Source: Azorhizobium doebereinerae UFLA1-100
GTDB taxonomy: Bacteria; Pseudomonadota; Alphaproteobacteria; Rhizobiales; Xanthobacteraceae
DNA length: 56,567 nt
Direction: 5' to 3'
Assembly (NCBI RefSeq): GCF_000473085.1
Contig: NZ_AXBA01000030.1
Coordinates: 22,083 to 78,649 of the forward strand
Shown: piece after piece, positions 13,345 through 31,265 of the stretch
How positions within the stretch are numbered: position 1 is the first letter of the stretch
Layout of the letters: each line of letters opens with the position of its first letter
Notes under the pieces: generated by a model
Seen by the model: only the letters and a program-made list of their open reading frames with translations
The model's database searches: none
Told to the model about the DNA's origin: nothing
Program-made: the position numbers and the translations under genes

Positions 13345-14994
13345 TCAGCCGGCTTCGGCGGGAAACGCCACGCCCCGGCCGAGCGCCACCACCACGCCCT
13401 CGTTGGCCCGCAGGGCAAGCTCGCCCGCCACCGCCTCATCCACCCGGTCGCACAAGGTGGATTGCAGGATCTGCCCGGCGAGGCCGTCGAAGGCGGCGAG
13501 CAGGGGCTCGCCGCCCAGATTGAGCGCGACGAGGAGGCGCTCGTCCTGCGCCTCGCGGCCATAGACCAGCAGGTTGCCGGTGGCCGCCACCGGGCGATAG
13601 GCGCCGACGGCGAGGGCGGGGTGGGCGCGGCGCAGGCTCAGCAGGGCGTGGGTGAGCGCGTACATTCCATGCGATGACACACGGTGTTGCATCACGTTAA
13701 TTTCGGGGAAGTTCGTGTCCAAAGGCAGCCACGGTGTCACATCGCTGAACCCGCCATTGGCGGACGCATCCCATGGCATGGGGGTGCGCACCCCGTCCCG
13801 CCCGAGCCCCAGGCCGGGCAGGTTCTTCTCCCACGGATCCTGCACCTTGTCGGCCGGAATGGGCACGGTCGTCATGCCGATTTCATCGCCATAATAAAGG
13901 GTTGGCGTACCGCGCAGGGTCAGGAGCAGCATCTGCGCCACCCGCGCCTGGTCCGGCCCCAGCCGGCTCGCCACCCGCGGCCGGTCGTGATTGCCCAGCA
14001 CCCAATTGGGCCAGCCGCCCGGCGGCAGGGCTTTTTCATAGCGGGCAATGAGATCCGCCACCGCCCGAGCCTCCCATGCTACCTCCAAAAGGGCGAAGTT
14101 GAAGGGCAGGTGGGCGCCGTCGAGATTGGCCCCATAATACGCGCCAAGCCGTTCCACCGGCAGGTAGATTTCGCCGATGAGCACACGGTCGTCATAGCCG
14201 TCCACCACCTTCCGCAGGCCGGCTATGACGGTATGGACTTCCGCCAGATCGGTGGTGTGGACCGGCAGCAGCCGCCGGTAGGGGTTCATGCCCGGGCGAT
14301 AGTCCGGATCGGGCGGGTTGTCGCGAAAATCCTTGTCCTTCAACAGGTGCCAGATCACATCCACCCGGAATCCCGCCACCCCGCGATCCAGCCAGAAGCG
14401 CATCGCCTTGTGGATCGCCTGGGCCACTTCGGGGTTGCGCCAGTTGAGGTCGGGCTGGCTGGCGAGGAAGGCGTGGTAATAGTATTGTCCGGTATTCTCG
14501 TCGTATTCCCAGGCACTTCCGCCGAATTCCGACAGCCAGTTGTTGGGCGGCCCGCCATCCGGCGCCGGGTCGCGCCAGATATACCAGTCGCGCCGGGGAT
14601 GGGTCCGCGACGTCCGCGCCTCCCGGAACCAGGGGTGCTGGTCGGAGGTATGGTTGGGCACCAGGTCGAGGATCACCTTGAGATTGCGTGCCCCCGCCTC
14701 CGCCATCAGCCGGTCGAAGTCGTCGAGCGTGCCGAACAGCGGGTCGATTCCCTCATAATCTGCAACGTCATAGCCAAAATCGGCCATGGGCGAGGGATAG
14801 ATGGGCGAGATCCAGACCGCATCCACTCCCAGCTCTTCCAGATAGCCGAGCCGGCGACGGATGCCCTCCAGATCGCCCACCCCGTCACCATTGCTGTCCT
14901 GGAACGAGCGCGGATAGACCTGATAGATCACGCCTTTCTGCCACCACAAAGGCTCGCGCCCCGGCCCCGCCCCCGCGCTCTCCCGATCCGCCAC
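13345..14994 (-). CDS. GH13 alpha-glucosidase (oligo-1,6-glucosidase-like)
   Basis: This 549-residue cytoplasmic glycoside hydrolase hydrolyses alpha-glucosidic bonds at non-reducing ends of small sugars. The (beta/alpha)8 barrel begins [15 protein letters not shown]. The GH13 catalytic triad is intact: nucleophile D212 (FRVDVIWH), acid/base E275 (LIGEIYLP) and transition-state D337 (LGNHDRPR). [14 protein letters not shown] and LYYGDEIGM are further family marks. No signal peptide is seen, so it likely acts on maltose, trehalose-derived or imported oligosaccharides in the cytoplasm. It is divergent from the glgE operon and has its own EcfG-like promoter candidate at 15082-15106, suggesting shared stress control. 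Confidence 0.9.
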
Positions 14995-15081
14995 GCCGTC
15001 CTCCCCTTGCTCCGGGCTGGCATCCTGCGCCCCGCCGACGACACGCCCGCGACCCTGATCCGCGCGTGTCGCATCATCGAT

Positions 15082-15106
15082 AACATACGGTGGCTGAAGG
15101 GGTTCC
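15082..15106 (-). promoter_or_regulatory. EcfG-type promoter candidate for the alpha-glucosidase gene
   Basis: On the minus strand the sequence reads GGAAC-N16-TGTT, against the alphaproteobacterial general-stress consensus GGAAC-N16/17-CGTT. The -35 is perfect and the -10 matches three of four. It would give a leader of roughly 80 bases before the ATG at 14994. Confidence 0.4.
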
Positions 15107-15145
15107 CCCGGGCGACCTTGAGCACGGCGTTTCCAGGCAGGCGGG

Positions 15146-15170
15146 GGAACCCTCGGCCAGCTGCCGCGTT
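15146..15170 (+). promoter_or_regulatory. EcfG-type promoter of the glgE operon
   Basis: The sequence GGAAC (15146-15150), 16 bases, then CGTT (15167-15170) is a perfect match to the EcfG (sigma-EcfG/RpoE2/SigT) consensus. It is placed 76 bases before the glgE start. General-stress control of trehalose genes is established in several alphaproteobacteria. It faces away from the minus-strand candidate 40 bases to the left. Confidence 0.68.
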
Positions 15171-15246
15171 GAGCCGGTGGAGGGGACCGCCCGGCGGCAC
15201 GCGTCGGCGGCGACGCGCCTCTTCGTCACCCGCCACGACGAGTGCC

Positions 15247-18200
15247 ATGCAGATCCTGCGCGCCCCCTTTTCCCATGCCCCTTCCGCCGGTCTGGCCGCG
15301 CCCCTGCCGCGGCTCTATCTCGTGCACCCGCTCTGGCTCGACGGCCTCGATGCCTTCGGTGCGGCCTGCGACCATGCCGCCGGCCTCGGCTTCAACGGCA
15401 TCCTGCTGGCGCCGCCCTTCGCCACCGGCCGCGGCGGCAACATCTTCCTGACCGCCGACCACGACCGCCTGAACGCCGCCTTCGGCACCGAGGCCGACGC
15501 GGTGGACGGCCTCGCCGCGCTGGTCGGCCACGCCCGCAGCCGCGGGCTCGACCTCCATCTGGACCTGGTGGTGGACCGCGTCGCCGCCGACGGCCTGCTG
15601 CCGGCGCTGGAGGGCGGCTGGTTCCTGCCGGCCGAGGCCGCCGAGGCGGCGCCCGACCCGCGCCGGCCCGAGCGTCAGCGCGACGCCGCCCTGCTGGCCC
15701 TCGACCAGCCCGACGTCGCCATCGCCGCGGGCCGCTATTTCGCCGAGTTGGTCGCCCAATGGACCGCCGCCGGAGTGCGCGGATACCGCTGCGACGCTCC
15801 CCATCGGGTCCCTGCGGCGGTGTGGGCCGAGGTGATCGGCGCCGGCCGCCTCACCCGGCCCGACACGCGGTTTCTCGCCTGGACGCCCGGCGTTCCGGCC
15901 GAAGCGGTGGCCGCCCTCGCCGGCATCGGCTTCGACGGCGCGTTCGCCTCCACCGCCTGGTGGGACTTCCGCAAGCCCTGGATGGGCGAGGAACTGGAAC
16001 GGCTGCACGGCCTCGGCGCCGCCTTGGGCTGCCCCGAGACGCCGTTCGGGCCGCGCCTGTCGGCGCATCTGCCTCTGCCCGCCCATGGGGAAATCCCGCA
16101 TCGGCGGGCGCTCGACTTCAGCGCCGCCATCGGCGACGGCCTGCTGGTGCCGGCCGGCTTCGAATATGGCGCCCGCGACCCGCTCGACCCGGCGCGCGGG
16201 TCGCCGTCCGACCTCGCCTTCGCCCGCGAGACCGCCCCGTTCGACCTCGGCCCCGCCATCCGCGCCGCCAACGCCCGCCTCGCCGCCCGGGCCGGAGCCG
16301 CCGCGGGGCCCTGGCGCCCGGCCTCGGCGCCCGGCGCCGACGCGCCGGCCTTCGCGCGGATGGAAGGCGACGGCGCCGCCCTGGTCCTGGCCAATGCCCT
16401 GGTGGATGCCCGCACCACGGTGGACGGCATGGCGATCCTGCCGCGCGCCCTGGGCTTCGGCCGTTTCATGAGCCCGGACGGCCACATGCTCTCGCCCGCC
16501 GCGCCCGCCGACCTCGGGCTGGGGCAGGTGATCCGCTTCACCTCCGCGGCGCTCCCGCCGATCCTGGAAGGCCGGATCGGGCGAGACGCTGCACGCGCCG
16601 CGGCCGAAGCGCCCCGCCTTGCCATCGAGGCGGTGACGCCCGCCGTGGACGGCGGCGCCTTTCCGGTCAGGCGCCTTCTCGGCGAGCGGGTCCGCGTCGA
16701 GGCGGACGTGGTGACGGACGGGCATGACGCCATCGCCGTGGCACTGCTCTGGCGGCCGGCGGATGCCCCGGACTGGGCCGAAATCCCCATGACCGCGCTG
16801 GGCAATGACCGCTATGCGGGGGAATTCCCGCTGGAGCGCCTGGGGCGGCACGTCTTCACCATCGCCGCCTGGCGCGACGCCTTCGGCACCTTCCACCACG
16901 AGTTGGACGCCAAGGTGAAAGCGGGCATCCCCGTCGACCTGGAGATCCGCGAGGGTGCCGCGCTGGTCGCCCAGGCCAGCGCGGCCGAGGACACCGCCGG
17001 CGCGCTGGCGACGCTACAGGACCGGATGGCCCGCGCCACGCCCGAGCAGCAGCGCGACATCCTGCTGGCGGACGACACCGTTCGCCTCATGCGCACCACC
17101 CGCGAACGTCCCTTCCTGTCTCAGCATCCGACGCATTTCGGCGTCGATGCCGAGCGCCAGGGCGCGGCGTTTGCGAGCTGGTACGAGATCTTCCCCCGCT
17201 CCACCAGCGGCGATCCCACGCGGCACGGCACCTTCGACGACGTGATCGCCGACCTGCCGCGCATCCGCGACATGGGCTTCGACGTGCTGTATTTTCCGCC
17301 CATCCATCCCATCGGCAGGCAGAATCGCAAAGGCCGCGACAACAGCCTGACGCCGGGCCCCGACGATCCGGGCAGCCCTTACGCCATCGGTTCCAGCGAC
17401 GGCGGCCACACCGACATCCACCCGCAGCTCGGCACGGCCGAGGACTTCCTGCGCCTCGTTGCGGCCGCGCGGGCACATGGGCTTGAGATCGCGCTCGATT
17501 TCGCCATCCAGTGCGCGCCCGACCACCCCTGGCTCGCCCAGCATCCCGGCTGGTTCGCCTACCGGCCCGACGGCTCGATCCGCTATGCGGAGAATCCGCC
17601 GAAGAAGTACCAGGACATCGTCAACGTCGACTTCTACGCGAAGGACGCGGTGCCCGACCTGTGGCTCGCTCTGCGCGACGTGGTGATCCACTGGATCGAC
17701 CAGGGCGTGCGCCTGTTCCGGGTGGACAATCCCCACACCAAGCCGCTGCCGTTCTGGCAATGGCTGATCGCCGACGTGCGCGGGCGCTATCCCGACACCG
17801 TATTCCTGGCGGAAGCCTTCACCCGCCCGAAGATGATGCTTCGCCTCGCCAAGATCGGCTTCTCCCAGTCGTACAGCTATTTCACCTGGCGCAACACGAA
17901 GGCGGAATTGACCAGCTATCTGGAGGAATTGCGCCAACCGCCGGCGAGCGACGTCTACCGCCCGCACTTTTTCGTCACGACGCCGGACATCAATCCCTAC
18001 TACCTCCAGACTTCAGGTCGCGGCGGCTTCCTCGCCCGCGCGGCGCTGGCGGCGACCCTGTCGGGCCTGTGGGGCGTGTTCTCCGGCTTCGAGCTGTGCG
18101 AGGCCGCCGCCGTTCCGGGCAAGGAGGAATACGTCGCCTCCGACAAATACGAGATCCGCGCCCGCGACTATGCCGCGCCCGGCAACATCGTGGCGGAAAT

Positions 18201-18543
18201 CACCAAGCTGAACCGCATCCGCCGCGAGAACCCGGCGCTGCACACCCACACCTCCGTCCTCTTCCTCAATGCCTGGAACGACCACGTGCTCGCTTTCGCC
18301 AAGGCCACGCCCAGTCGCGACAACCTCCTGGTCGTCGCCGTCAACCTCGATCCCCATGCGGTGCAGGCAGCGGATTTCGAGATCCCACTCTGGGAGCTCG
18401 GCCTGCCCGATGATGCCGCCGTCGAGGTGGAGGACCTGATGGGCGAGACGCGCTTCCGCTGGACCGGCAAGGTGCAGCACGTGCGGCTCGACCCCGCCGT
18501 GCTTCCCTTCGCCATCTGGCGCCTCTCCAAGGCGGAGGGCTGA
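15247..18543 (+). CDS. glgE: GlgE maltosyltransferase with an extra degenerate N-terminal GlgE-like domain
   Basis: GlgE transfers maltose from alpha-maltose-1-phosphate onto the non-reducing end of alpha-1,4-glucan. This 1098-residue protein is about 400 residues longer than a standard GlgE. Residues about 456-1098 form a complete GlgE: an N-terminal beta-domain, then the GH13 barrel from [20 protein letters not shown]. Its nucleophile D827 ([10 protein letters not shown]), acid/base E856 ([10 protein letters not shown]) and D914 (TTPDINPYY) are conserved. Residues 1 to about 400 are a second GH13-like barrel in which D183 (YRCDAPHR) remains but FLAWTP puts W212 where E856 would align, and the third Asp is missing. 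ATG 15247 was chosen; the open frame further upstream lies antisense over the alpha-glucosidase gene. First gene of the six-gene operon, 3 bases before treS. Confidence 0.93.
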
Positions 18544-18546
18544 GCC

Positions 18547-21500
18547 ATGGATGCCATGCGCGCAGGCGACGATCCGCTCTGGTACAAGGACGCGGTTATC
18601 TATCAGATGCATATCAAGTCGTTTTTCGATTCCAACAATGACGGCATCGGCGACTTTCCCGGCCTCATCTCCAAGCTCGACTACATCGCCGAGCTGGGCG
18701 CCGACACCATATGGCTGCTGCCCTTCTATCCCTCGCCGCGCCGCGACGATGGCTACGACATCTCGCTCTACGAGGGCGTGTCACCGGACTACGGCACCAT
18801 GGAGGATGCCCGCCGCTTCATCGACGCCGCGCACGCGCGGGGCCTCAGGGTCATCACCGAGCTGGTGATCAACCACACCTCCGACCAGCATCCCTGGTTC
18901 CAGCGGGCGCGTCACGCGCCGAAGGGCTCGCCGGAGCGCAATTACTACGTCTGGGCCGACGACGACCAGGGCTATGCCGGCACCCGCATCATCTTCCTCG
19001 ACACCGAGAAATCCAACTGGACCTTCGACCCGGTGGCCGGCCAGTATTTCTGGCACCGCTTCTATTCGCACCAGCCGGACCTGAATTTCGATAATCCCGA
19101 AGTGCTGGACCAGGTGCTCTCCGTCATGCGCTTCTGGCTCGACCTGGGCGTGGACGGGCTCCGGCTCGACGCGGTGCCCTACCTGATCGAGCGCGACGGC
19201 ACCTCCAACGAGAACCTGGCCGAGACGCACGACATCCTGAGGCAGATCCGCGCCCATCTCGACGCGAACTATTCCGGGCGCATGCTGCTGGCGGAGGCCA
19301 ACATGTGGCCCGAGGACGCCCAGCAATATTTCGGCGCGGATGCCGACGAATGCCACATGTCGTTCCACTTTCCGCTGATGCCGCGCATGTACATGGCCAT
19401 CGCGAAAGAAGACCGCTTCCCCATCACCGACATCCTGCGCCAGACACCGGAGATTCCGGAAAGCTGCCAGTGGGCCATCTTCCTGCGCAACCATGATGAG
19501 CTGACGCTCGAGATGGTGACGGATTCCGAGCGCGACTATCTGTGGAGCGTCTATGCCGCCGACCGAAGGGCGCGCCTCAACCTCGGCATCCGCCGCCGCC
19601 TCGCGCCGCTGCTGGAACGCGACCGGCGTCGCATCGAGCTGATGAACGGCCTGCTGCTCACCATGCCCGGCACGCCGGTGATCTATTATGGCGACGAGAT
19701 CGGCATGGGCGACAACATCCATCTGGGCGACCGCGACGGGGTGCGCACGCCCATGCAATGGTCGCCGGACCGCAACGGCGGCTTCTCCAGGGCCGACCCG
19801 GAGCAACTGGTGCTGCCTCCCATCCAGGATCCGCTCTACGGCTATTTCGCGCTGAATGTGGAAGCCCAGCTGCGCGACCCTCACTCGCTGCTCAACTGGA
19901 CACGGCAGATGCTCGCCATAAGGCGACGCCACAAGGCGTTCGGCCGCGGCACGTTCCGCCTGCTCTATCCGGGTAACCGCAAGATCCTCGCCTATCTGCG
20001 CGAATATGAGGACGAGGCGATCCTCTGCGTCGCAAATCTCTCGCACACCTTGCAGGCGGTGGAGCTGGAGCTGCAGGAATTCGAGCATCGCGTGCCGGTG
20101 GCCATGGTGGGCGCGACACCCTTCCCGCCCGTCGGCCGGCTGCCCTATCTGCTCACCATCCCGCCGTTCGGCATGTATGCCTTCCAGCTCTCCCGCGAGG
20201 TGGCCGAGCCGAGCTGGCACAGCCCGCCGCCGTCGCAATTGCCGGAGTTCACCACACTGGTGCTGCGCAACGGGCTCGTGGAGGCGGTCTCGGCCAAGCA
20301 TCGCGCGCTGATCGAGAACGAGGCCCTGCCGGCCTATCTTCGCCGCCGGCGCTGGTTTGCCTCGAAGAACGAGAAGATCGGCGGCGCCCGCCTCGCGCTC
20401 ACCGCGGGCATGCCCGGCACGGAGAAGGACTTCCAGTTCGCCGACATCGAGGTGAACGTGGGCGGGCGGACCGAGCATTACGCCATGCCACTCACCATCG
20501 TGTGGGAGGACCAGCAGCCGGCCGCGCTCGTCACCCAGCTGGCCCTCACCCGCGTGCGCCAGGGGCGGCGGGTCGGCTATCTCACCGATGCGCTCACGTC
20601 CGATGCCCTGCCCCACGCGCTCGTCCGGGCGCTCCGGCGTCAGGCGGCGATGCCGCTGCCGGATGGCGGCGAACTGCGCTTCGTGCCGACCCACAAGCTG
20701 GCGGAGATGGAGATCCCCGCCGACGCGCCGATCCAGCGCACGGCGGCCGAACAGTCGAACTCCACCATCATCATCGGCAGCGTCGCGGTCATCAAGGTGG
20801 TCCGCCGCACCCTCTACGGCATGCACCCCGAATCCGAGATGGCGCGCTACCTCACCGAGCAGGGCTACCAGAACACGGCGCCGCTGCTGGGCGAGGTGGT
20901 TCGCATCGCGCCGGACGGCACCCCGGCGGTGCTCGGCCTGATGCTCGGCTTCGTCAGCAACCAGGGTGATGCCTGGTCCTGGACGCTGGATCAGCTGCGC
21001 CGGGCTCTCGATGCCACCGAGGCGATGCCGCAGGAGGCCGAGCATCTGTTCGAGGAACAGATCTCCGGCATCACGCCGTTCGTGCGCGGGCTCGGCCGAC
21101 GACTGGCGGAGCTGCACGAAGTGCTGGCCCGGCCGACCGCGAATCCGGATTTCGCGCCGGGCACCGCGACAGCGGAGGATGCCCGGCGCTGGAGCGAGGA
21201 CATCGCGGCGGAAATGACCGCCGCGCTGGACACCCTGGCCGAGACCACATCCTGGCCCGACGCGGACACGCAGACCATCGCGCGCAGCATCCTGGACGTC
21301 CGGCCGGCGCTGCTGGCGGCGGTCCAGCGCCTCGCCGCCGGGGCGGAGGGCGCGGCCATGACGCGCATCCATGGCGACTTCCACCTGGGCCAGATCCTGG
21401 TCTCCGGTGGAGACGCCTACATTATCGACTTCGAGGGCGAGCCGCGCCGTTCCATTCCCGAACGCCGCATGAAGTCCAGTCCCTGGCGCGACGTGGCCGG

Positions 21501-21852
21501 ACTTTTGCGCTCGCTCGACTATGCCACTGCCACCCTGTCCATGGGCGCGCCGGACCAGGCTTCCTGGTCCGGCGGCCCGCAGCGGACGGACCTGCTGCGC
21601 CGCTTCAAGGTTCGCGCCGCCCGCACCTTCCTCGGCGGCTATGTGGAAGGCGGCGGACCGGCCACCTCCATCGACCGCGCTCTGCTCGATCTCTTCCTGC
21701 TGGAGAAGGCAGCCTATGAGATCGCCTATGAGGCCGCCAACCGCCCCGGCTGGATGGGCTTGCCCGTGCGCGGCCTGCATGGCCTTGCCGTTCGCCTTGC
21801 CGGTGCCGCCGAGCTGGAGGAGGACGCGGAGCTGGAGGGGGTCTCGCCATGA
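18547..21852 (+). CDS. treS: Trehalose synthase/maltokinase fusion (TreS-Mak)
   Basis: This 1101-residue bifunctional enzyme has an N-terminal TreS (about 1-550, GH13) that interconverts trehalose and maltose. Its triad is intact: D208 (LRLDAVPY), E250 (LLAEANMW) and D317 ([10 protein letters not shown]). The C-terminal maltokinase/Pep2 domain (about 570-1101) phosphorylates maltose to maltose-1-phosphate, the GlgE substrate. Its kinase marks are the [10 protein letters not shown] loop (D944, H946) and DFEGEP (D961). The fusion channels trehalose directly into the GlgE pathway and is a recognised architecture. The gene follows glgE by 3 bases and precedes glgB by 55 bases. Confidence 0.95.
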
Positions 21853-21907
21853 GGTCCACCACGCCGTCCGCTTTCGACCGCGCCCATTCCCATTACGGAG
21901 ACCTGCC

Positions 21908-24154
21908 ATGACCATAGCGGAGCGCTTCGCGACCGATCTCATCCTTGATGAGGGCGCGCTCAAGGCCCTGGTTGACGGGCGGCACGGCGATCCGTTCGGC
22001 CTTCTCGGGCCGCATCGCCTGGAAGGCGGAACGGTGGTGCGCACCTTCCAGCCGGGCGCCCGCGCCGTGGAGGTTCTGGAAGGCGGCTCGGGCCGCGCGC
22101 TGATGCCGCTCCAGCAGGTCCATCCCGCCGGCGTGTTCGCCGGGCGGCTGCCCGAGCGCACCGCGGCGCGCGGTCGCGCCGACGCGATGCCGCACTACGT
22201 GCTCGCGATCACATGGCCCGACGGCAGCATCCAGGAGACCGAGGATCCCTACTCCTTCGCCCCGCTGCTCGGAGAACTCGACCTCTATCTGCTGGCGGAA
22301 GGGACCCATCTTGGCATCTCCGAGGTGCTGGGGGCCCATGCCACCACGGTCGAGGGCGTTCCCGGCGTGCGCTTCGCCGTCTGGGCGCCCAACGCGCGGC
22401 GCGTTTCGGTGGTCGGGGAGTTCAACGGCTGGGATGGAAGGCGCCACCCCATGCGCCATCGCCACGCGGGCGGCATCTGGGAGCTGTTCCTGCCCCGCCT
22501 CGGCCCCGGCACGCGCTACAAATACGAGATCATCGCCCGCGACGGCACGCCACTGCCGCTGAAGGCCGATCCCGTCGCGCGGGCGGCGGAGCTGCCGCCC
22601 GCCACCGCCTCCATCGTCGCCGATCCCACGCCCTTCCACTGGAGCGATGCGGCATGGATGGCCGGGCGCGCCGAGCGCCAGTCGGCCGAGGCGCCGCTCT
22701 CCATCTACGAGGTGCATCCCGGCTCGTGGATGCGCGTCCACGAGGACGGCTGGCGCAGCCCGGACTGGGCAGAGCTGGGCGACCGCCTCATCCCCTATGC
22801 CGCCGAGATGGGCTTTACCCATATTGAGCTAATGCCCATCATGGAGCATCCCTTCGGCGGCTCCTGGGGCTACCAGCCGCTCGGCATGTTTGCCCCCACC
22901 TCCCGCTTCGGCACGCCGCACGCCTTCGCCCGCTTTATCGACCGTTGCCACGAGGCCGGCATCGGCGTGCTGCTGGATTGGGTTCCGGCGCACTTCCCCA
23001 GCGATGCGCACGGCCTCGCCCGGTTCGACGGAACGGCGCTCTACGAACATGCGGACCCCCGGGAAGGCTTCCACCACGACTGGAATACGCTGATCTACAA
23101 TTTCGGACGCTCGGAGGTTTCCGGCTTCCTCGTGGCGAGCGCGCTGGAATGGCTGCGGCACTTCCATATCGACGGGCTGCGGGTCGATGCGGTGGCCTCG
23201 ATGCTGTACCGCGACTATTCCCGCAAGCCCGGTGAATGGGTGCCGAACATCCATGGCGGACGGGAGAATCTGGAGGCTGTCGCCTTCCTGCGGCGGCTCA
23301 ACGACGTGGTCCATATGGAAGCGCCCGGAGCCATCGTCATCGCCGAGGAGAGCACCGCCTGGCCGGGCGTGACGGCGCCGGTTGAGGTCGGCGGGCTGGG
23401 CTTCTCCTTCAAGTGGAACATGGGGTGGATGCACGACACCCTGCGCTACATCGGCCATGAGAGCATTCACCGCCGCTATCATCACCACGACATGACGTTC
23501 GGCCTCGTCTACGCCTTCTCCGAGCGCTTCATCCTGCCGATCTCCCATGACGAGGTGGTGCACGGCAAGGGCTCGCTGCTGGCCCGCATGCCGGGCGACG
23601 AATGGCAGCGCATGGCCAACATGCGCGCCTATCTCGGCTTCATGTGGGGCCACCCTGGCAAGAAGCTGCTGTTCATGGGCTGCGAGATCGCCCAGCCGCA
23701 CGAATGGAACCACGACGGCGAGATCGCCTGGGACCTGCTGGACCAGCCGTTCCACCGCGGCATGCAGAAGTTGGTGCGCGACCTCAACGCCTGCTATGCG
23801 GCGCACCCCGCCCTTCATCGGCGCGACGCCACGCCGGACGGCTTCGCCTGGATCGTCGGCGACGACGTGGACAATTCGGTCTTCGCCTTCTTCCGTCTCG
23901 CACCGGACGCCCCGCCGGTGCTGGTGGTCAGCAACATGACGCCGGTGCCGCGCCAAGCCTATCGCATCGGCGTGCCGGTGGGCGGCTGGTGGGCCGAAGC
24001 GGTGAATACGGATGCCGGCGATTACGGCGGCGCCGGAATGGGCAACCTGGGCGGCATCGCGGCGGATGCGCAGGAGAGCCACGGCCAACCGCACAGCCTC
24101 GTCCTCACTCTGCCGCCGCTCTCGACCCTGTTCCTGACACCACAGGTGTCATGA
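21908..24154 (+). CDS. glgB: 1,4-alpha-glucan branching enzyme GlgB
   Basis: This 748-residue enzyme cuts alpha-1,4 chains and re-attaches them through alpha-1,6 bonds, branching the glucan made by GlgE. An N1 and a CBM48 domain (about 1-230, including [21 protein letters not shown]) precede the GH13 barrel with [18 protein letters not shown]. Catalytic residues are D427 (LRVDAVASM), E480 ([10 protein letters not shown]) and D548 ([12 protein letters not shown]). Length is normal for the long bacterial form. ATG 21908 is preferred because the conserved protein begins there, 55 bases after treS. It sits 10 bases before glgX. Confidence 0.95.
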
Positions 24155-24164
24155 GAGGCGCGTC

Positions 24165-26342
24165 ATGACCATGCCGCCCATCCCCGATCGGCTGGAGAAA
24201 GGACGCCCTTACCCGATGGGCGCGACGCCGGACGGACTCGGCACGAACTTCGCCGTCTTCTCGGCCAATGCCGAGAAGATCGAGCTCTGCCTGTTCGAGC
24301 CCACCGGGCGGCGGGAGGTGGCCCGCCTCGCCCTGCCGGACTGCACCGACGAGGTATGGCACGGCTATCTTCCGGGGGCCTTCGAGGGCCTGATCTACGG
24401 CTATCGCGCGTATGGTCCGTTCGATCCCGCGCGCGGCCACAGGTTCAACCCCGCGAAGCTGCTGCTGGATCCCTACGCGAGGCAATTATCGGGACAGCTC
24501 CGCTGGTCCGACGCCCTGTTCGGCTATCGGGTGGGCGGCATGCGGGGCGATCTTTCGCTCGACCGGCGCGACAGCGCGGCCGCAATGCCCAAGGGCATGG
24601 TGGTGGGCAATACGGTGGATTGGGGTGATGACCGCGCGCCCGATGTCGCATGGTCGGACACCGTGATCTACGAGACGCACGTGCGCGGCCTGACCATGCG
24701 TCGCAGCGATGTGAGACCTCACGAGCGCGGCACCTTCTCGGCGCTCGGCAGCCCCCGCATCATTGACCATCTGCTCAAGCTCGGCATCACCAGCGTCGAG
24801 CTGATGCCGATCCACGCTTTCTTGCAGGAGCGCTTCCTGCTGGAGAAGGGGCTGCGCAACTATTGGGGCTATTCGACCCTCGCCTTCTTCGCCCCCGAGC
24901 CCTCGTTCCTCTCCACGGGCTCGCTGCACGAGTTGCGGGCCGCCATCCGGCGCCTGCACGCGGCTGGCATCGAGGTGATCCTGGACGTGGTGTACAACCA
25001 CACCTGCGAGGGCAATGAGCTCGGCCCCACGCTGTCGTTCCGCGGCCTCGACAATGCCAGCTACTACCGCCTCGTCCCCGGAGACGAGCGCTACTACATC
25101 AACGACACCGGCTGCGGCAACACGGTGAACCTCTCCCATCCGCGCGTGCTGCAGATGGTGATGGACAGCCTGCGCTACTGGGCCACGGCCTTTCGCGTGG
25201 ATGGGTTTCGCTTCGACCTCGGGGTCACGCTGGGCCGGGAAGGCAATGGCTTCGATCCCGGCTCCGGCTTCTTCGACGTCATCCGCCAGGACCCGGTGCT
25301 CTCGCGCTGCAAGCTGATTGCCGAGCCCTGGGACATCGGACCGGACGGCTACCAGCTCGGCTGCCTGCCACCGGGTTTTGCGGAGTGGAATGACAGTTTC
25401 CGCGACGGCGTGCGCCGCTTCTGGCGGGGAGAGGAAGGCCAGCGCGGTAATCTCGCGGCGCGCCTGTCCGGATCGGGCGAGCTGTTCGATCGCCGCTTCC
25501 GCAAGCCGTGGGCCTCGATCAATTACGTCGCCTCCCACGACGGCTTCACGCTGGCCGATCTCGTTGCCTACGAGTACAAGCACAATCTGGCCAATGGCGA
25601 GGACAATCGCGACGGGCACGACGGCAATTACAGCGCGAACTGGGGCGAGGAGGGCCCGAGCCCGGACCTGGCCATCCAGGAGACACGCGCGCGCGTCGCC
25701 CGCGCCATGCTGGCGACCGTCTTCTTCTCCCACGGCACGCCCATGCTGCTGGCAGGCGACGAATTCTCCCGCACGCAGAGAGGCAACAACAATGCCTACT
25801 GCCAGGACAACGACATCTCCTGGGTGGACTGGGAGCAGGCGCAGGCGCCACAGGGCCGCAGCCTCACCGCCTTCGTCGCGCGGCTGAACGAGATCCGCGG
25901 CCGCTACCCCATCCTCCGCGCTCCGCGCTTCCTGCATGGGCATGAAGCGCTCAGCGAGAGCCTGCGCGACATCGGCTGGTTCGACGAGACCGGCGCCGAG
26001 CTGGCGGGCGAGGGATGGCATGCGGACGGGGGGCAGACGTTGGCCCTGCGCCGTGCCGGCCGCACCCCCACGGGCGGGTTCGACATCCTCCTCCTGCTGC
26101 TCAACGGGCGACCGCATCCCGTTTCCTTCACCCTGCCCGAACCCGTGCTCACCTGGCGCCTCCTGGTGGACAGCGCTGCGGGCGTCGTTCCCGAGGAGCG
26201 GGGCATCGTCGGGCAGACCGCCGTGGAAGGCCGCAGCGTGCGGCTCCTCGCCGCCCATATGGCACCCCACGCCGCGCCCTCTCCGGCGCCCCGCCCGGCC
26301 GCATCGCCCGCATGGCCGCCACCCACCAGATCGGACTTCTGA
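24165..26342 (+). CDS. glgX: Glycogen debranching enzyme GlgX (isoamylase type)
   Basis: This 725-residue debranching enzyme hydrolyses alpha-1,6 branches of short outer chains. The CBM48 domain (about 12-120: PYPMGATPDGLGTNFAVFS) is followed by a GH13_11 barrel with VYNHTCEGNELGPTLSFRG. Catalytic residues are D351 (GFRFDLGV), E387 (IAEPWDIG) and D459 (ASHDGFTL). The last 25 residues are a Pro/Ala-rich tail outside the conserved fold. GlgX usually feeds linear maltodextrins to MalQ and TreY, which follow in the operon. Confidence 0.94.
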   Translation: MTMPPIPDRLEKGRPYPMGATPDGLGTNFAVFSANAEKIELCLFEPTGRREVARLALPDCTDEVWHGYLPGAFEGLIYGYRAYGPFDPARGHRFNPAKLLLDPYARQLSGQLRWSDALFGYRVGGMRGDLSLDRRDSAAAMPKGMVVGNTVDWGDDRAPDVAWSDTVIYETHVRGLTMRRSDVRPHERGTFSALGSPRIIDHLLKLGITSVELMPIHAFLQERFLLEKGLRNYWGYSTLAFFAPEPSFLSTGSLHELRAAIRRLHAAGIEVILDVVYNHTCEGNELGPTLSFRGLDNASYYRLVPGDERYYINDTGCGNTVNLSHPRVLQMVMDSLRYWATAFRVDGFRFDLGVTLGREGNGFDPGSGFFDVIRQDPVLSRCKLIAEPWDIGPDGYQLGCLPPGFAEWNDSFRDGVRRFWRGEEGQRGNLAARLSGSGELFDRRFRKPWASINYVASHDGFTLADLVAYEYKHNLANGEDNRDGHDGNYSANWGEEGPSPDLAIQETRARVARAMLATVFFSHGTPMLLAGDEFSRTQRGNNNAYCQDNDISWVDWEQAQAPQGRSLTAFVARLNEIRGRYPILRAPRFLHGHEALSESLRDIGWFDETGAELAGEGWHADGGQTLALRRAGRTPTGGFDILLLLLNGRPHPVSFTLPEPVLTWRLLVDSAAGVVPEERGIVGQTAVEGRSVRLLAAHMAPHAAPSPAPRPAASPAWPPPTRSDF

Positions 26343-26349
26343 GAACGCC

Positions 26350-28467
26350 ATGGACGACAGCCTTCGCGACCTCGCTCGTGCCGCCTGTGTCTCCCCCACC
26401 TGGCACGACGCGTTCGGACGCCTCCAGACGGTGCCGGCCGAAGCCTTGCGCACCATCCTCGCCGCGCTCGGTCTGCCAGCAGGCTCGCCCGGAGATCTCT
26501 CCGACAGCCTCGCCCGCGCCCGCCAGGGCGCGGCGTCAACCCCGCCTCTCGTGACGGCAGACGCCGGCGCGCCGGTGCGCGTCCCCCTGCCCGACGCCGA
26601 CGGGCGTGTGCGATGGCACGTCACACTCGATGGCGGCGGCGTGGTGGAGGGAGAGACGGATGTGGAGAGGGGAAGCCTGCTGCTGCCCGCCCTCGACATG
26701 CCCGGCTACCACACCCTGGAGGCGGGCGGAACGCGCTGCACGCTCGCGGTGGCGCCGGCATGCTGCTTCGACATCGGCGACGCCACGGCGCAGGCCGACC
26801 CGCGCCTCTGGGGCCTCGCGGTCCAGCTCTATGCGCTGCGCCGGCAGGGCAAGGAAGGGGCCGGCGACGGCGGCATCGGCGACTTCACCGCCCTCGCCGA
26901 TTTTGCCCGCGGCGCAGCGGCGCAAGGCGCCTCCGCCCTGGTGCTCAGCCCCGTCCATGCCTCCTTCTCAGCGGACATTCGTCATTTCAGCCCCTATGCG
27001 CCGTCGAGCCGCCTGTTCCTGAATGCGCTGCATGCGGACCCTGCCGCCCTGTTCGGCCCCGCAGCGACTGCCGCCGCCATCGCCGCCCTTGGCCTGTCGG
27101 AGCCCCTCTCCCGCTTCGCCCAGGCCGAAGCCGTGCCATGGCAGCCGGCGGGAGATGCCCGGCTCGCCATATTCCGCCGGCTCTACGAGACCGAGCTGCC
27201 CCTCCGTCCTGACCTTGAGGCGGACCTGGCAGCCTTCCGCGCCGCGGGCGGGGAGCCGCTGGAGGACCACGCCCGGTTCGAGGCCCTGCATGCCAGGATG
27301 TTCGGAGCCGATCCGGGCAAGTGGCATTGGCACACATGGCCGGAAGGCTTCCGCGATCCGCGCGGCGCGGCGGTCGCCGCCTTTGCCCGCAAGAGCGCGG
27401 CGGAGGTCGGTTTCCATGCCTTCCTGCAATGGGCCGCGGCGCGGGGGCTCGCGGACGCCCAGGCGGCGGCGCGGGCGGCGGGCATGCCCATCGGCCTCAT
27501 CAGCGACCTCGCCGTGGGCAGCGACGGCGGCGGCAGCCAGGCCTGGAGCCGCCAGCAGGACATGCTCATCGGCCTGTCCATCGGTGCGCCTCCGGATCTT
27601 CTGAATTCCATCGGGCAGGCCTGGGGCCTCGCCGCCTTCTCGCCGCGCGCCATGGTGGAGACCGGGTTCCGGTCCTTCATCGACATGCTGCGCGCCGCCA
27701 TGGCCCATGCGGGCGGGGTGCGCATCGACCACATCATGGGATTGATGCGGCTATGGATGGTACCCGACGGGGCCAAGCCCTCGGAAGGCGCCTATCTCGC
27801 CTATCCGTTCGATGACCTGGAACGTCTCGTCGCGCTGGAATCCCTGCGCCATCGGACCATCGTCACCGGCGAGGACCTCGGCACCGTGCCGGAGGGCTTC
27901 CGGGAGCGGCTGGCCCGGCGGCACATCCTCGGCATGCAGGTGCTGTGGTTCGAGCGCGACGCCGCGCGCTACACGCCGGCGGCCGATTATGCGGCCGCCT
28001 CCATCGCCGTGACCGGCACCCACGACCTGCCCACCGTCGCCGGCTGGTGGCGCGGGCGCGACATCGACTGGCGCACACCGCTGGGGCTGCTGGGCGAGAA
28101 TATCGACGCGCCGCAGGCCAGAAGTGACCGCGAGGCCGACCGCGAGGCCCTGTGGTCCGCCATCGGCGCGGGTGCCCGTCCGGCGGCCGACGACCCCGCG
28201 CCGGTGCTCGACGCCGCCTTGCGCTTCATCGGCCGCACCCCCGCCCCGCTCGTGGTCATCCCCGTCGAGGACGCCCTCGGCCTCGTGGAGCAGCCGAACC
28301 TGCCGGGAACGGTGGACGAGCATCCGAACTGGCGGCGCCGCCTGTCGGCCACGGGGGCCGAACTGCTCGATGCGGCGGATGTGAAGGCACGGCTTGCCGC
28401 GCTCGACGACGCACGCCGCGATGGCCGGTCCGCCGCGGCCGGCGGCCAGCACAGGAGACATGCGTGA
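26350..28467 (+). CDS. malQ: 4-alpha-glucanotransferase MalQ (amylomaltase)
   Basis: This 705-residue disproportionating enzyme (GH77) moves glucan segments between maltodextrins and releases glucose. An N-terminal domain (about 1-150) precedes the barrel. Catalytic residues are D460 (VRIDHIMGLMRLW), E508 (TGEDLGTVP) and D559 (GTHDLPTVAGWW). It starts 7 bases after glgX and its stop overlaps the GTG start of treY by 4 bases (GTGA), so it is firmly part of the operon. It likely reworks the short chains released by GlgX into lengths usable by TreY. Confidence 0.94.
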   Translation: MDDSLRDLARAACVSPTWHDAFGRLQTVPAEALRTILAALGLPAGSPGDLSDSLARARQGAASTPPLVTADAGAPVRVPLPDADGRVRWHVTLDGGGVVEGETDVERGSLLLPALDMPGYHTLEAGGTRCTLAVAPACCFDIGDATAQADPRLWGLAVQLYALRRQGKEGAGDGGIGDFTALADFARGAAAQGASALVLSPVHASFSADIRHFSPYAPSSRLFLNALHADPAALFGPAATAAAIAALGLSEPLSRFAQAEAVPWQPAGDARLAIFRRLYETELPLRPDLEADLAAFRAAGGEPLEDHARFEALHARMFGADPGKWHWHTWPEGFRDPRGAAVAAFARKSAAEVGFHAFLQWAAARGLADAQAAARAAGMPIGLISDLAVGSDGGGSQAWSRQQDMLIGLSIGAPPDLLNSIGQAWGLAAFSPRAMVETGFRSFIDMLRAAMAHAGGVRIDHIMGLMRLWMVPDGAKPSEGAYLAYPFDDLERLVALESLRHRTIVTGEDLGTVPEGFRERLARRHILGMQVLWFERDAARYTPAADYAAASIAVTGTHDLPTVAGWWRGRDIDWRTPLGLLGENIDAPQARSDREADREALWSAIGAGARPAADDPAPVLDAALRFIGRTPAPLVVIPVEDALGLVEQPNLPGTVDEHPNWRRRLSATGAELLDAADVKARLAALDDARRDGRSAAAGGQHRRHA

Positions 28468-31265
28468 TCCCTCCCCGCGCCACCGTCAGGCTGCAATTCC
28501 ATAAGGCCTTCCCGCTGGATGCCGCGATCCCCCTGCTCGACTATTTCCAGGCGCTCGGCATCAGCCACATTTATTCCTCGCCCCTGCTCACCTCCCGCAT
28601 CGGGTCGGGACATGGCTATGACACGGTGGACCACACCTCCCTCGACCCGGAAACCGGCGGGGAGGAAGCCTTGCGCCGCCTCGTGGCCGCGCTGCGGCTG
28701 CGCGGCATGGGGCTGATCCTCGACATCGTGCCCAACCACATGGGCGTGGGCGGCGGCGACAATCGCGTGTGGCTCGACGTGCTGGAATGGGGCCGGGCCA
28801 GCGCTTACGCTGAGGTCTTCGACGTGGACTGGGCCCCCGCCGACCCGCAGCTCGCCGGCAAACTGCTCGCTCCCTTCCTCGACCGCCCCTATGGCGTGGC
28901 GCTTTCCGCCGGGGCGCTGCAACTCACCTATGACGCGGCACGCGGCACGTTCCATGTCTCCCACCACGAGCACGTCTTTCCCATCTGCCCGCTGAACTAT
29001 GCCGAAGTGCTGGCCGCCGCCGAACTGCCCGCCCTGACCGAGGCGCGGCTGCTGTTCGAGGAGATCGCCGCCACGCCCGCCCCCCATCCCGACCGGGTGG
29101 CGAGCGCCCAGGCGCGGCTTGCCCAAGCCGTCGCCGACGCCGGCGGCCCCGACCTCCTCGCCCCCCTCATCGCGGCTTTCGACGCCCGCACCGAGGATGG
29201 CAAGGCCCGCCTCCATGCCCTTCTGGAACGCCAGAACTACCGCCTCGCATGGTGGCGGACGGCGAACGACGACCTGAACTGGCGGCGCTTCTTCGACATC
29301 ACCGGGCTCGCCGGCGTGAAGGTCGAGCGCGCTGACGTATTCGACCAGACCCACGCGCTCATCTTCCGGCTCTATGCCGAAGGGCTCATCGACGGCCTGC
29401 GCATCGACCATGTGGACGGCATCGCCGATCCCGGTGCCTATTGCCAGCGGCTGCGCCGCCAGCTTGAGAGCCTGGACGCCGGCCGGCCGGAGGACCTGCC
29501 CCCCGCCGGCTATGTGGTGGTGGAGAAGATCCTCCATCCGGGCGAGGTGCTGCCCGCCGACTGGCCGGTGGAAGGCACCACCGGATATGATTTCATGGAC
29601 GAAGCCGCAGCCGTGCTGCACGACCCCGCGGGAGCGGCAGCGCTGACCGCCATCTGGCAGGATGCCTCCGGCGAGCGGGCGCCCTATGCGGCACAGCTCG
29701 AAGCAGCGCGGCGCCAGATCCTGCGCGAGGGCTTCGGCGCCGAGATGCAGACCGCCACCCGTTCGGTGCACCAACTCGCCCGCAGCGATCTCGACACGCG
29801 CGACATCACCGAGGCGGCGCTGCGCCGGGTGCTCAATGAGCTGGTGATCGCCTTCCCGGTCTATCGTTCCTATGTCACCGCGCAGGGTCGCACGGCGCAG
29901 GACGTCACCTTCCTCGGGCATGCGGCGGAGGACGCACGCAAGAGGCTGCCGCCCATCGATCATCCGGTGCTGGACCTGCTGTGGCGCTGGGTGAGCGGCG
30001 AAGCCCCGAAGGCGACCGGCGACATCTGGCAGGCCGGCACGCGGGACTATGCGCTGGCGAAATTCCAGCAGCTCACCGCGCCCATCGCGGCCAAGTCCAT
30101 GGAGGACACGCTGTTCTACCGCTATGGCCGGCTGCTTTCGCGCAACGAGGTGGGTTCCGACCCACAGCATCTCGCCATGACGCCGGACGAATTCCACGCG
30201 CAGATGGCGCGGCGCGCGCAGACCCATCCGCACGCCATGCTCGCCACCGCCACCCACGACCATAAGCGCGGCGAGGACGCCCGCCTGCGCCTCGCGGTCC
30301 TGAGCGAACTGCCGCATGTCTGGTGCGACGTTCTCGATGCGCTGATGGCGCAGGCCGCGCCGTTCCGCTCCGAGCTGGCGGGAGGGCCAGCCCCCAGCGC
30401 GGCCGACGAGATCATGCTGTATCAGACCCTCATCGGCGCCTGGCCGCACATGCTGGCTCCCGATGACGCTGCGGGCACCGACGCGCTGTGCGCGCGGGTG
30501 GCCGAATGGCAGCTCAAGGCCCTCCGCGAAGCCAAGAAGCGCACCAATTGGGTGTTCCCGAACGATGCCTATGAGGCCGCTTGCCGTGATTTTCTTGATG
30601 CCTTGCTCAAGAGAGAGGACGGCGCTCCCGCCCGGCGGACCCTCGCGGATTTCGCCGCCCGCATCGGCGTTGCCGGCGCGCTCAACAGCCTGTCACAGAT
30701 CGCACTGAAATATGCCGGGCCCGGCGTGCCCGACCTCTATCAGGGCACGGAATTCTGGGACCTCAGCCTCGTCGATCCCGACAACCGCCGCCCGGTGGAT
30801 TATGAGGCGCGGATGGCCGCGTTCGCCGCCGACGCCCCGCCGCAGGACCTCATGGCGCATTGGCGGGATGGCCGGATCAAGCAGGCCGTCATCGGCCGCA
30901 TGCTCGCGGCCCGTAGCGCCTGCCCCGACCTGTTCGCCTCCGGCAGCTATCGCCCTCTGGACGTGCGGGGCGCGCGCCAGGACAACGGGCTCGCCTTCGC
31001 CCGCGCGCTTGGACACGACAGCCTCATCGTCCTCGTCTCGCGGCTCGCGGCGCCGTTGCTGGACGGCCAGGCCCTTCCCCACATTCCCGCCGCCGCCTGG
31101 GAAGACACGGCGGCGATGGTCCCCGGCGGTTTCGCGGGCTCGTATGTGGACGTGCTGACCGGCGGGACGAGGAGCCTGGGTGAGGGGCCGCTCGCCTTCG
31201 CCGACGGCCTCACGGCCCTGCCGGTTGCCGTGCTGCTCAGATCCCGCGCGATCGCGGCATCCTGA
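28464..31265 (+). CDS. treY: Malto-oligosyltrehalose synthase TreY
   Basis: This 933-residue GH13_26 enzyme turns the reducing-end alpha-1,4 bond of a maltodextrin into an alpha,alpha-1,1 bond, making maltooligosyl-trehalose. The start ATVRLQFHKAFPLDAAI and YSSPLLTSRIGSGHGYDTVDH are family-typical. Catalytic residues are D315 (LRIDHVDGI), E354 (VVVEKILHPGE) and D599 (TATHDHKRGED). The GTG start at 28464 overlaps the malQ stop and has GGAG about 7 bases upstream. The usual partner TreZ, which releases trehalose, is not in the operon. It is the last gene of the unit; no clear terminator follows, only the next promoter candidate. Confidence 0.95.
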   Translation: MIPPRATVRLQFHKAFPLDAAIPLLDYFQALGISHIYSSPLLTSRIGSGHGYDTVDHTSLDPETGGEEALRRLVAALRLRGMGLILDIVPNHMGVGGGDNRVWLDVLEWGRASAYAEVFDVDWAPADPQLAGKLLAPFLDRPYGVALSAGALQLTYDAARGTFHVSHHEHVFPICPLNYAEVLAAAELPALTEARLLFEEIAATPAPHPDRVASAQARLAQAVADAGGPDLLAPLIAAFDARTEDGKARLHALLERQNYRLAWWRTANDDLNWRRFFDITGLAGVKVERADVFDQTHALIFRLYAEGLIDGLRIDHVDGIADPGAYCQRLRRQLESLDAGRPEDLPPAGYVVVEKILHPGEVLPADWPVEGTTGYDFMDEAAAVLHDPAGAAALTAIWQDASGERAPYAAQLEAARRQILREGFGAEMQTATRSVHQLARSDLDTRDITEAALRRVLNELVIAFPVYRSYVTAQGRTAQDVTFLGHAAEDARKRLPPIDHPVLDLLWRWVSGEAPKATGDIWQAGTRDYALAKFQQLTAPIAAKSMEDTLFYRYGRLLSRNEVGSDPQHLAMTPDEFHAQMARRAQTHPHAMLATATHDHKRGEDARLRLAVLSELPHVWCDVLDALMAQAAPFRSELAGGPAPSAADEIMLYQTLIGAWPHMLAPDDAAGTDALCARVAEWQLKALREAKKRTNWVFPNDAYEAACRDFLDALLKREDGAPARRTLADFAARIGVAGALNSLSQIALKYAGPGVPDLYQGTEFWDLSLVDPDNRRPVDYEARMAAFAADAPPQDLMAHWRDGRIKQAVIGRMLAARSACPDLFASGSYRPLDVRGARQDNGLAFARALGHDSLIVLVSRLAAPLLDGQALPHIPAAAWEDTAAMVPGGFAGSYVDVLTGGTRSLGEGPLAFADGLTALPVAVLLRSRAIAAS

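Follow-up and report, generated by a model that had tools for sequence, protein, structure and literature searches.

A predicted GlgE maltosyltransferase of Azorhizobium with a probable GH13-derived pseudoenzyme fused at its N terminus

A gene of Azorhizobium doebereinerae UFLA1-100 encodes a GlgE preceded by 455 residues that resemble a second GlgE barrel, which raises the question of what this additional domain is, where it came from and what it might do. The gene lies on the plus strand at 15247-18543 of the window, by which we mean the whole stretch of 56,567 nucleotides analysed here (contig NZ_AXBA01000030.1, positions 22,083 to 78,649), and its translation from the ATG at 15247 to the stop at 18543 gives 1098 amino acids. 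The start is supported by the homologue of Azorhizobium oxalatiphilum, which begins at the aligned ATG and has 77% identity in the N-domain. The glgE frame is open for another 521 codons upstream (13684-15246), mostly antisense to a divergent GH13 gene, and this stretch is probably a high-GC artefact outside the protein. The divergent gene itself (13345-14994, minus strand) is alpha-glucosidase/TreS-like and scores under the cut-off of all eight NCBIfam families listed.

Judged by its domains and catalytic residues, the segment from residue 456 to 1098 is an ordinary GlgE, with a predicted maltosyltransferase function (alpha-1,4-glucan:maltose-1-phosphate maltosyltransferase, GH13_3). The Pfam families GlgE_dom_N_S, Alpha-amylase and GLGE_C all fall in these C-terminal 643 amino acids, with PF11896 and PF21702 over their cut-offs: domain N/S covers residues 456-637 (16612-17157, plus strand; PF11896, E 5.3e-53), the catalytic barrel follows at 17176-18264 (plus strand; placed by Pfam, residue positions and the full-length model) with the Asp nucleophile D827, the Glu acid/base E856 and the third Asp D914 all present, and the C-terminal domain spans residues 1007-1091 (18265-18519, plus strand; PF21702, E 5.8e-18). 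The genes downstream, all on the plus strand and all over the cut-offs of their families, are those of the GlgE pathway and its glucan partners, namely a TreS-maltokinase fusion that makes the GlgE donor and is the next gene (18547-21852; TIGR02456 and TIGR02457), a GlgB branching enzyme ORF whose true start is probably inside the ORF (21521-24154; TIGR01515), a GlgX debranching enzyme (24165-26342; TIGR02100), a MalQ 4-alpha-glucanotransferase ORF (25936-28467; TIGR00217) and a TreY maltooligosyltrehalose synthase ORF (28152-31265; TIGR02401). The linkage of glgE to treS-mak and glgB is a further mark of a GlgE. TreY is thus encoded inside the glgE cluster, and TreZ is found elsewhere in the genome on another contig (G000:C25:493-2124).

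The N-terminal half was left unnamed by the library search because no Pfam or NCBIfam family reached its cut-off in residues 1-455 (Pfam alpha-amylase scored 18.7 bits, short of its cut-off of 22). Its similarity to the GlgE half is nevertheless far above chance (BLASTP, 30% identity over 169 amino acids, E 2e-13; profile-profile comparison, E 5.9e-18 over 319 columns), and its predicted fold (pLDDT 87, pTM 0.87) is a complete GH13-like barrel at residues about 20-346 (15304-16284, plus strand; predicted fold, Foldseek and alignments) followed by a beta C-domain at residues about 352-433 (16300-16545, plus strand; predicted secondary structure). When the predicted N half was searched with Foldseek, the top 13 PDB matches were all GlgE (TM 0.65-0.71 by query length, best E 2.5e-23), and by sequence, too, GlgE was the solved structure that matched best (E 9e-10).

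Predicted strands 179-182, 208-211 and 258-262 stop just ahead of D183, W212 and P266-F267, and the ends of those strands are the GH13 places of the nucleophile, the acid/base and the third carboxylate; the acid/base is therefore replaced by Trp and the third Asp by Phe. An earlier sequence-only reading of this DNA had aligned D183 (15793-15795, plus strand) with the nucleophile D827, had placed the acid/base position 29 residues further on in both halves (W212 in FLAW against E856 in FLAE) and had taken the third Asp to be lost. All of this agrees with our alignments and with the predicted fold, in which D183 is at the end of strand 4, W212 (15880-15882, plus strand) is at the end of strand 5 with no intact acid/base residue found in its stead, and F267 has the position of D914. 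In the intact relatives described below, W212 is Glu, P266-F267 (16042-16047, plus strand) is His-Asp, and the motif aligned with D110-R111 is Asn-His. The window domain therefore keeps D183 but has W212, P266-F267 and D110-R111 elsewhere in its site, so that it is, as had been proposed, a catalytically altered, GlgE-like barrel fused to GlgE, with no full triad.

Relatives of the N-domain with a full GH13 site carry DLVINHT, GFRCDAAY, AETLGC and PESHD, or close variants, in the same columns, and in 11 aligned relatives D93/N97/H98, R175/D177, E206 and H260/D261 are invariant. We called a member intact if it had D, E and D at the triad columns; the N, the H and the second H, which were not part of that definition, are present in 12/12 of the non-redundant intact set. 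Three intact members stand alone beside glucan genes (L112/L139, L116/L140 and L119/L141): one overlaps treZ, with treY after it (genome G208), one is followed by treZ (G387), and one precedes a separate glgE whose reading frame is open in two pieces (G404). In each of the first two genomes an ordinary, short GlgE is encoded at another locus as well. The run at L139 (4851-12727) consists of a KaiC-like ATPase, the intact stand-alone GH13, TreZ and TreY, and this GH13 is a candidate uncharacterised enzyme of a glucan-to-trehalose route. The G404 GlgE (L141, 7186-9199) lies in two overlapping open pieces, domain N/S and then the barrel, for which a frameshift, an assembly error and a split gene are all candidates. 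Two distant stand-alone members, L132 and L137 (L142 5501-7231; L143 1571-3058), also have the triad intact, and their genomes, which are small, gave no PF11896 match but are just 69 and 75% complete; in L142 the member lies beside a gene for a glycosyltransferase family 2 protein that has a GH17-like stretch. Intact N-domains fused to GlgE were found as well, in Azospirillum sp. B510 (AZL_RS26005, 1106 amino acids) and, within the window's own order, in five genomes of one genus (G343, G562, G569, G584 and G685).

The fused domain is genuine, conserved and spread over many taxa. Searching named genomes gave 234 loci, and the best 80 of these 234, which were used here, include Azorhizobium, Roseomonas, Belnapia, Microvirga, Luteibacter, Caballeronia, Paraburkholderia and Trinickia, with the alphaproteobacterium Azorhizobium oxalatiphilum as the nearest relative of the window protein among them. 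A match to the N half is also present in 158 plasmid records, 139 of them from Rhizobium. Within the window's genus, the locus of genome G002 is identical to the A. oxalatiphilum record over the glgE gene, and no homologue of the protein turned up at E 1e-20 in G001, a single contig of 5.4 Mb; the distribution of glgE across the genus is therefore patchy. Among 385 genomes sampled from the window's class, 41 have PF11896, and 22 of these 41 have the fusion, in frames of at least 1010 amino acids that, in 22/22, also contain an N-family match. Non-fused GlgEs account for 17/41 genomes (frames of 403-839 amino acids; two of these genomes, G208 and G387, have the family as a separate gene), and PF11896 fragments for 2/41, one being the split gene of G404. 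The triad columns of the 22 fusions read D/E/D in seven and N/E/D in one (L126) and are otherwise degenerate in 14, where position 212 is Trp in eight, Glu in two and D/R/G in four. All five stand-alone members of the class sample keep the triad, which fits a loss of catalysis after fusion, on a small sample (n = 5) from a search in which at most four candidates per genome were scored with the N-profile and members may have been missed.

What became of the old active site bears on what the domain does. The 40 non-redundant degenerate rows have Trp at position 212 in 27 cases and Phe or Tyr at position 267 in 32 (with six gaps); 17 of them retain D183, and in degenerate relatives the nucleophile position is otherwise L, E, P, M, G or a further residue. 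The conservation of W212, to which the sequence-only reading had drawn attention, thus holds as a common feature of degenerate relatives and not as a universal one. In the full set of 121 N-domains, which leans towards the window's near relatives and so swells the count, Trp is at 212 in 84, with Phe or Tyr at 267 in 82 of those 84, and Alpha-, Beta- and Gammaproteobacteria all have members that retain the pair. W238, W239, W245, S235 and G298 are near-invariant across intact and degenerate classes, and the motif W238-W239-D240 (15958-15966, plus strand; from the alignment) is common to both, D240 being N in some. An unconstrained nucleophile with paired aromatics at the other two sites is the pattern expected of a re-used site, and a plug is also possible, in which Trp and Phe may fill the cleft instead of binding sugar. 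E264 was considered as a substitute acid/base and rejected, as it is also present in the intact enzymes (12/12).

We tentatively favour glucan binding as the job of the N-domain. An ancestor with a GH13 barrel and C-domain, active to judge by the intact members, would have been fused in front of GlgE; the window's lineage would then have lost the catalytic set (NH to DR, the acid/base Glu to Trp, His-Asp to Pro-Phe) with the fold and scaffold kept. The retained cleft, now aromatic-lined, would bind maltooligosaccharide or branched glucan, and the domain would keep the elongating polymer close to the acceptor site of GlgE, so that the benefit would be mainly for long polymer acceptors. The glucan-pathway neighbours of the intact members, the kept scaffold residues and the aromatic replacements are the observations that speak for such a tether. 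A precedent is reported in passages of PMC5076824, where Streptomyces coelicolor GlgE without its secondary glucan site (Tyr-646) had a 31-fold lower kcat/Km for polymer and near wild-type constants for maltohexaose; on the other side, the same passages describe S. venezuelae with the equivalent secondary-site change as growing normally and making glucan. The faster evolution of the N half, the absence of Trp at 212 from part of the degenerate relatives, the loss of the strand-7 loop in some of them, the lack of a predicted packing on GlgE and the 17/41 GlgE-bearing genomes with a non-fused GlgE also weigh against this account.

The main rival to glucan binding, which we regard as less likely, is a structural or regulatory pseudoenzyme that sets the oligomeric state, stability or allostery of GlgE, or docks TreS-Mak or GlgB, and binds no glucan. 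The fold and many scaffold residues are kept as the nucleophile column drifts, the cleft could be filled by Trp and Phe, and the domain is fused next to domain N/S, all of which would suit such a role; in W. chondrophila GlgA-GlgB, the view of the authors of PMC7935935 is that the fused N-terminal domain probably blocks branching. Against it, W238, W239, W245, E264 and F305-E306, which the intact members share with most degenerate ones, may be signs that the cleft is retained, and the full-length model shows no fixed interface: its pTM is 0.54, and no defined packing of the N-domain on GlgE is therefore predicted.

A functionless, decaying relic of the fusion partner is an improbable account. 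The N half does evolve faster than the GlgE half, with dN/dS (Nei-Gojobori) of 0.24 against 0.17 between the window and Azorhizobium oxalatiphilum and of 0.06-0.37 against 0.03-0.20 in 12 further pairs, and several lineages are very divergent, the strand-7 loop being missing in some of the most degenerate domains. But although dN/dS of the N half exceeds that of the GlgE half in 13/13 pairs, it is also well under 1 in 13/13, in pairs that were hand-picked and not all independent (some share a row or a genus), and the Trp with Phe/Tyr is kept across three proteobacterial classes. The N-domain is under purifying selection, and with its catalytic residues lost, its fold kept (as predicted) and selection maintained it has the features of a pseudoenzyme.

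The sequence-only reading had explained the N-domain as a dead copy arising from internal duplication of GlgE, and this origin we now consider very improbable. In a tree of 47 barrels, from which TreY, GlgB, GlgX, TreZ and one amylase, all long branches, were left out (a first quick tree of 52 rows had a very long TreY branch on the N-family side), the 14 GlgEs form one clade (100/100) and the 28 members of the N-family another (100/98), with a core degenerate set at 100/100. Intact and degenerate N-domains share their clade with or without two far members (100/98 and 100/97). Grouping the N-domains with the GlgE halves of the fused proteins cost 64 log units (AU p 3e-11), and grouping the degenerate N-domains with the GlgE halves of the degenerate fusions cost 200 log units (AU p 2e-6); the groups were chosen after the first quick tree, so that these p-values do not come from a blind test. 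Both duplications tested within the sampled GlgE clade are thus rejected, and the intact stand-alone members carry motifs unlike those of GlgE. The profile of the degenerate N-domains matches the intact N profile at E 1.8e-72, GlgE at 5.9e-18 and 3dhu-like amylases (a label given here to three amylases) at 1.4e-14, so that, as regards origin, the domain does align better with another GH13 family, an outcome that the sequence-only reading had itself named as contrary to its proposal. What speaks for duplication is that GlgE is the best solved-structure match by both sequence and fold, and that GlgE and the N-family are sisters (97/81) relative to the 3dhu-like amylases, which leaves room for a much more ancient duplication that preceded the divergence of the sampled GlgEs. 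On the nearer kin of the N-family, that tree points to GlgE, and the profile scores of the intact set point somewhat more to the 3dhu-like amylases (E 2.4e-33) than to GlgE (E 4.1e-27). An N-only tree built without the catalytic columns from 55 of the 121 rows, under 72% identity and with L126 (nucleophile alone changed) absent, requires two changes between intact and degenerate and nine between D and not-D at the nucleophile. Row L007 is grouped with the degenerate rows in the 47-barrel tree and apart from them (89/85) in the N-only tree, so one or two losses are possible. Equally improbable is that the N-domain is still catalytic through D183 and another acid/base, since D183, present in the window and 17/40 non-redundant degenerate rows, differs in 23/40 while the rest persists, the window is changed at the acid/base, third Asp, NH and second H, and E264 is no replacement.

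By trees and profiles, the N-domain belongs to a GH13 family distinct from the GlgE to which it is attached, and we are highly confident both of what residues 1-455 are (a GH13-derived pseudoenzyme) and of where they came from (a distinct family fused ahead of GlgE). Taken together with the glucan-binding job, this pseudo-amylase identity and origin make an account to which we give an even chance. A bolder and more doubtful extension is that about half of alphaproteobacterial GlgEs have a built-in ex-amylase which, in the window's branch, would have exchanged its catalytic Glu and Asp for Trp and Phe/Tyr to become a lectin-like glucan cradle, handing chain ends to the maltosyltransferase and shaping the polymer, with a natural series from separate active through fused active to fused pseudoenzyme.

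The fused form is the commoner type of GlgE in the class sample (22/41), and it is annotated as GlgE or 'maltotransferase domain-containing protein' in the four plasmid records examined. The biochemically studied GlgEs come, in the parts of the literature covered here, from actinomycetes, Pseudomonas and Chlamydiae. We found no description of a fused pseudo-amylase domain in the open-access papers searched, most subscription papers being outside that search, and a GlgE whose non-catalytic domain derives from a GH13 enzyme would be a new form of GlgE. Separate, fused-intact and fused-degenerate versions exist side by side, which offers a direct way to test how a catalytic domain turns into a non-catalytic helper, and the same series lets one ask whether a tethering site shapes the alpha-glucan made by GlgE.

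Compared with known systems, the window protein is closest to GlgE itself (PDB 3zss, 4u33 and 5cgm): its C-terminal 643 amino acids have the nucleophile, acid/base and third Asp, and its N-domain has the same barrel, with GlgE nearest in the fold search. It differs in the added 455-residue GH13 domain, which lacks the acid/base and third Asp and belongs to another clade. This domain resembles the intact GH13 family, stand-alone or in the Azospirillum sp. B510 fusion, in length, position and scaffold motifs, but the family retains NH, D, E and HD at the sites where the window protein reads DR, D, W and PF. The alpha-amylases 3dhu (L. plantarum) and AmyB 4gkl (T. neapolitana) are the best PDB profile matches of the intact family; in the tree, whose rows did not include 3dhu and 4gkl themselves, similar amylases make up a clade of their own. 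The plant isoamylase ISA2, a second precedent, which passages of PMC12510319 describe as the non-catalytic partner of ISA1 in starch making, is likewise a non-catalytic GH13 relative beside an alpha-glucan enzyme, but it is a separate subunit, an isoamylase and a paralogue of its partner. The secondary site of S. coelicolor GlgE is on domain C of GlgE and not on an added domain, and it provides the functional model, an extra site that aids polymer extension.
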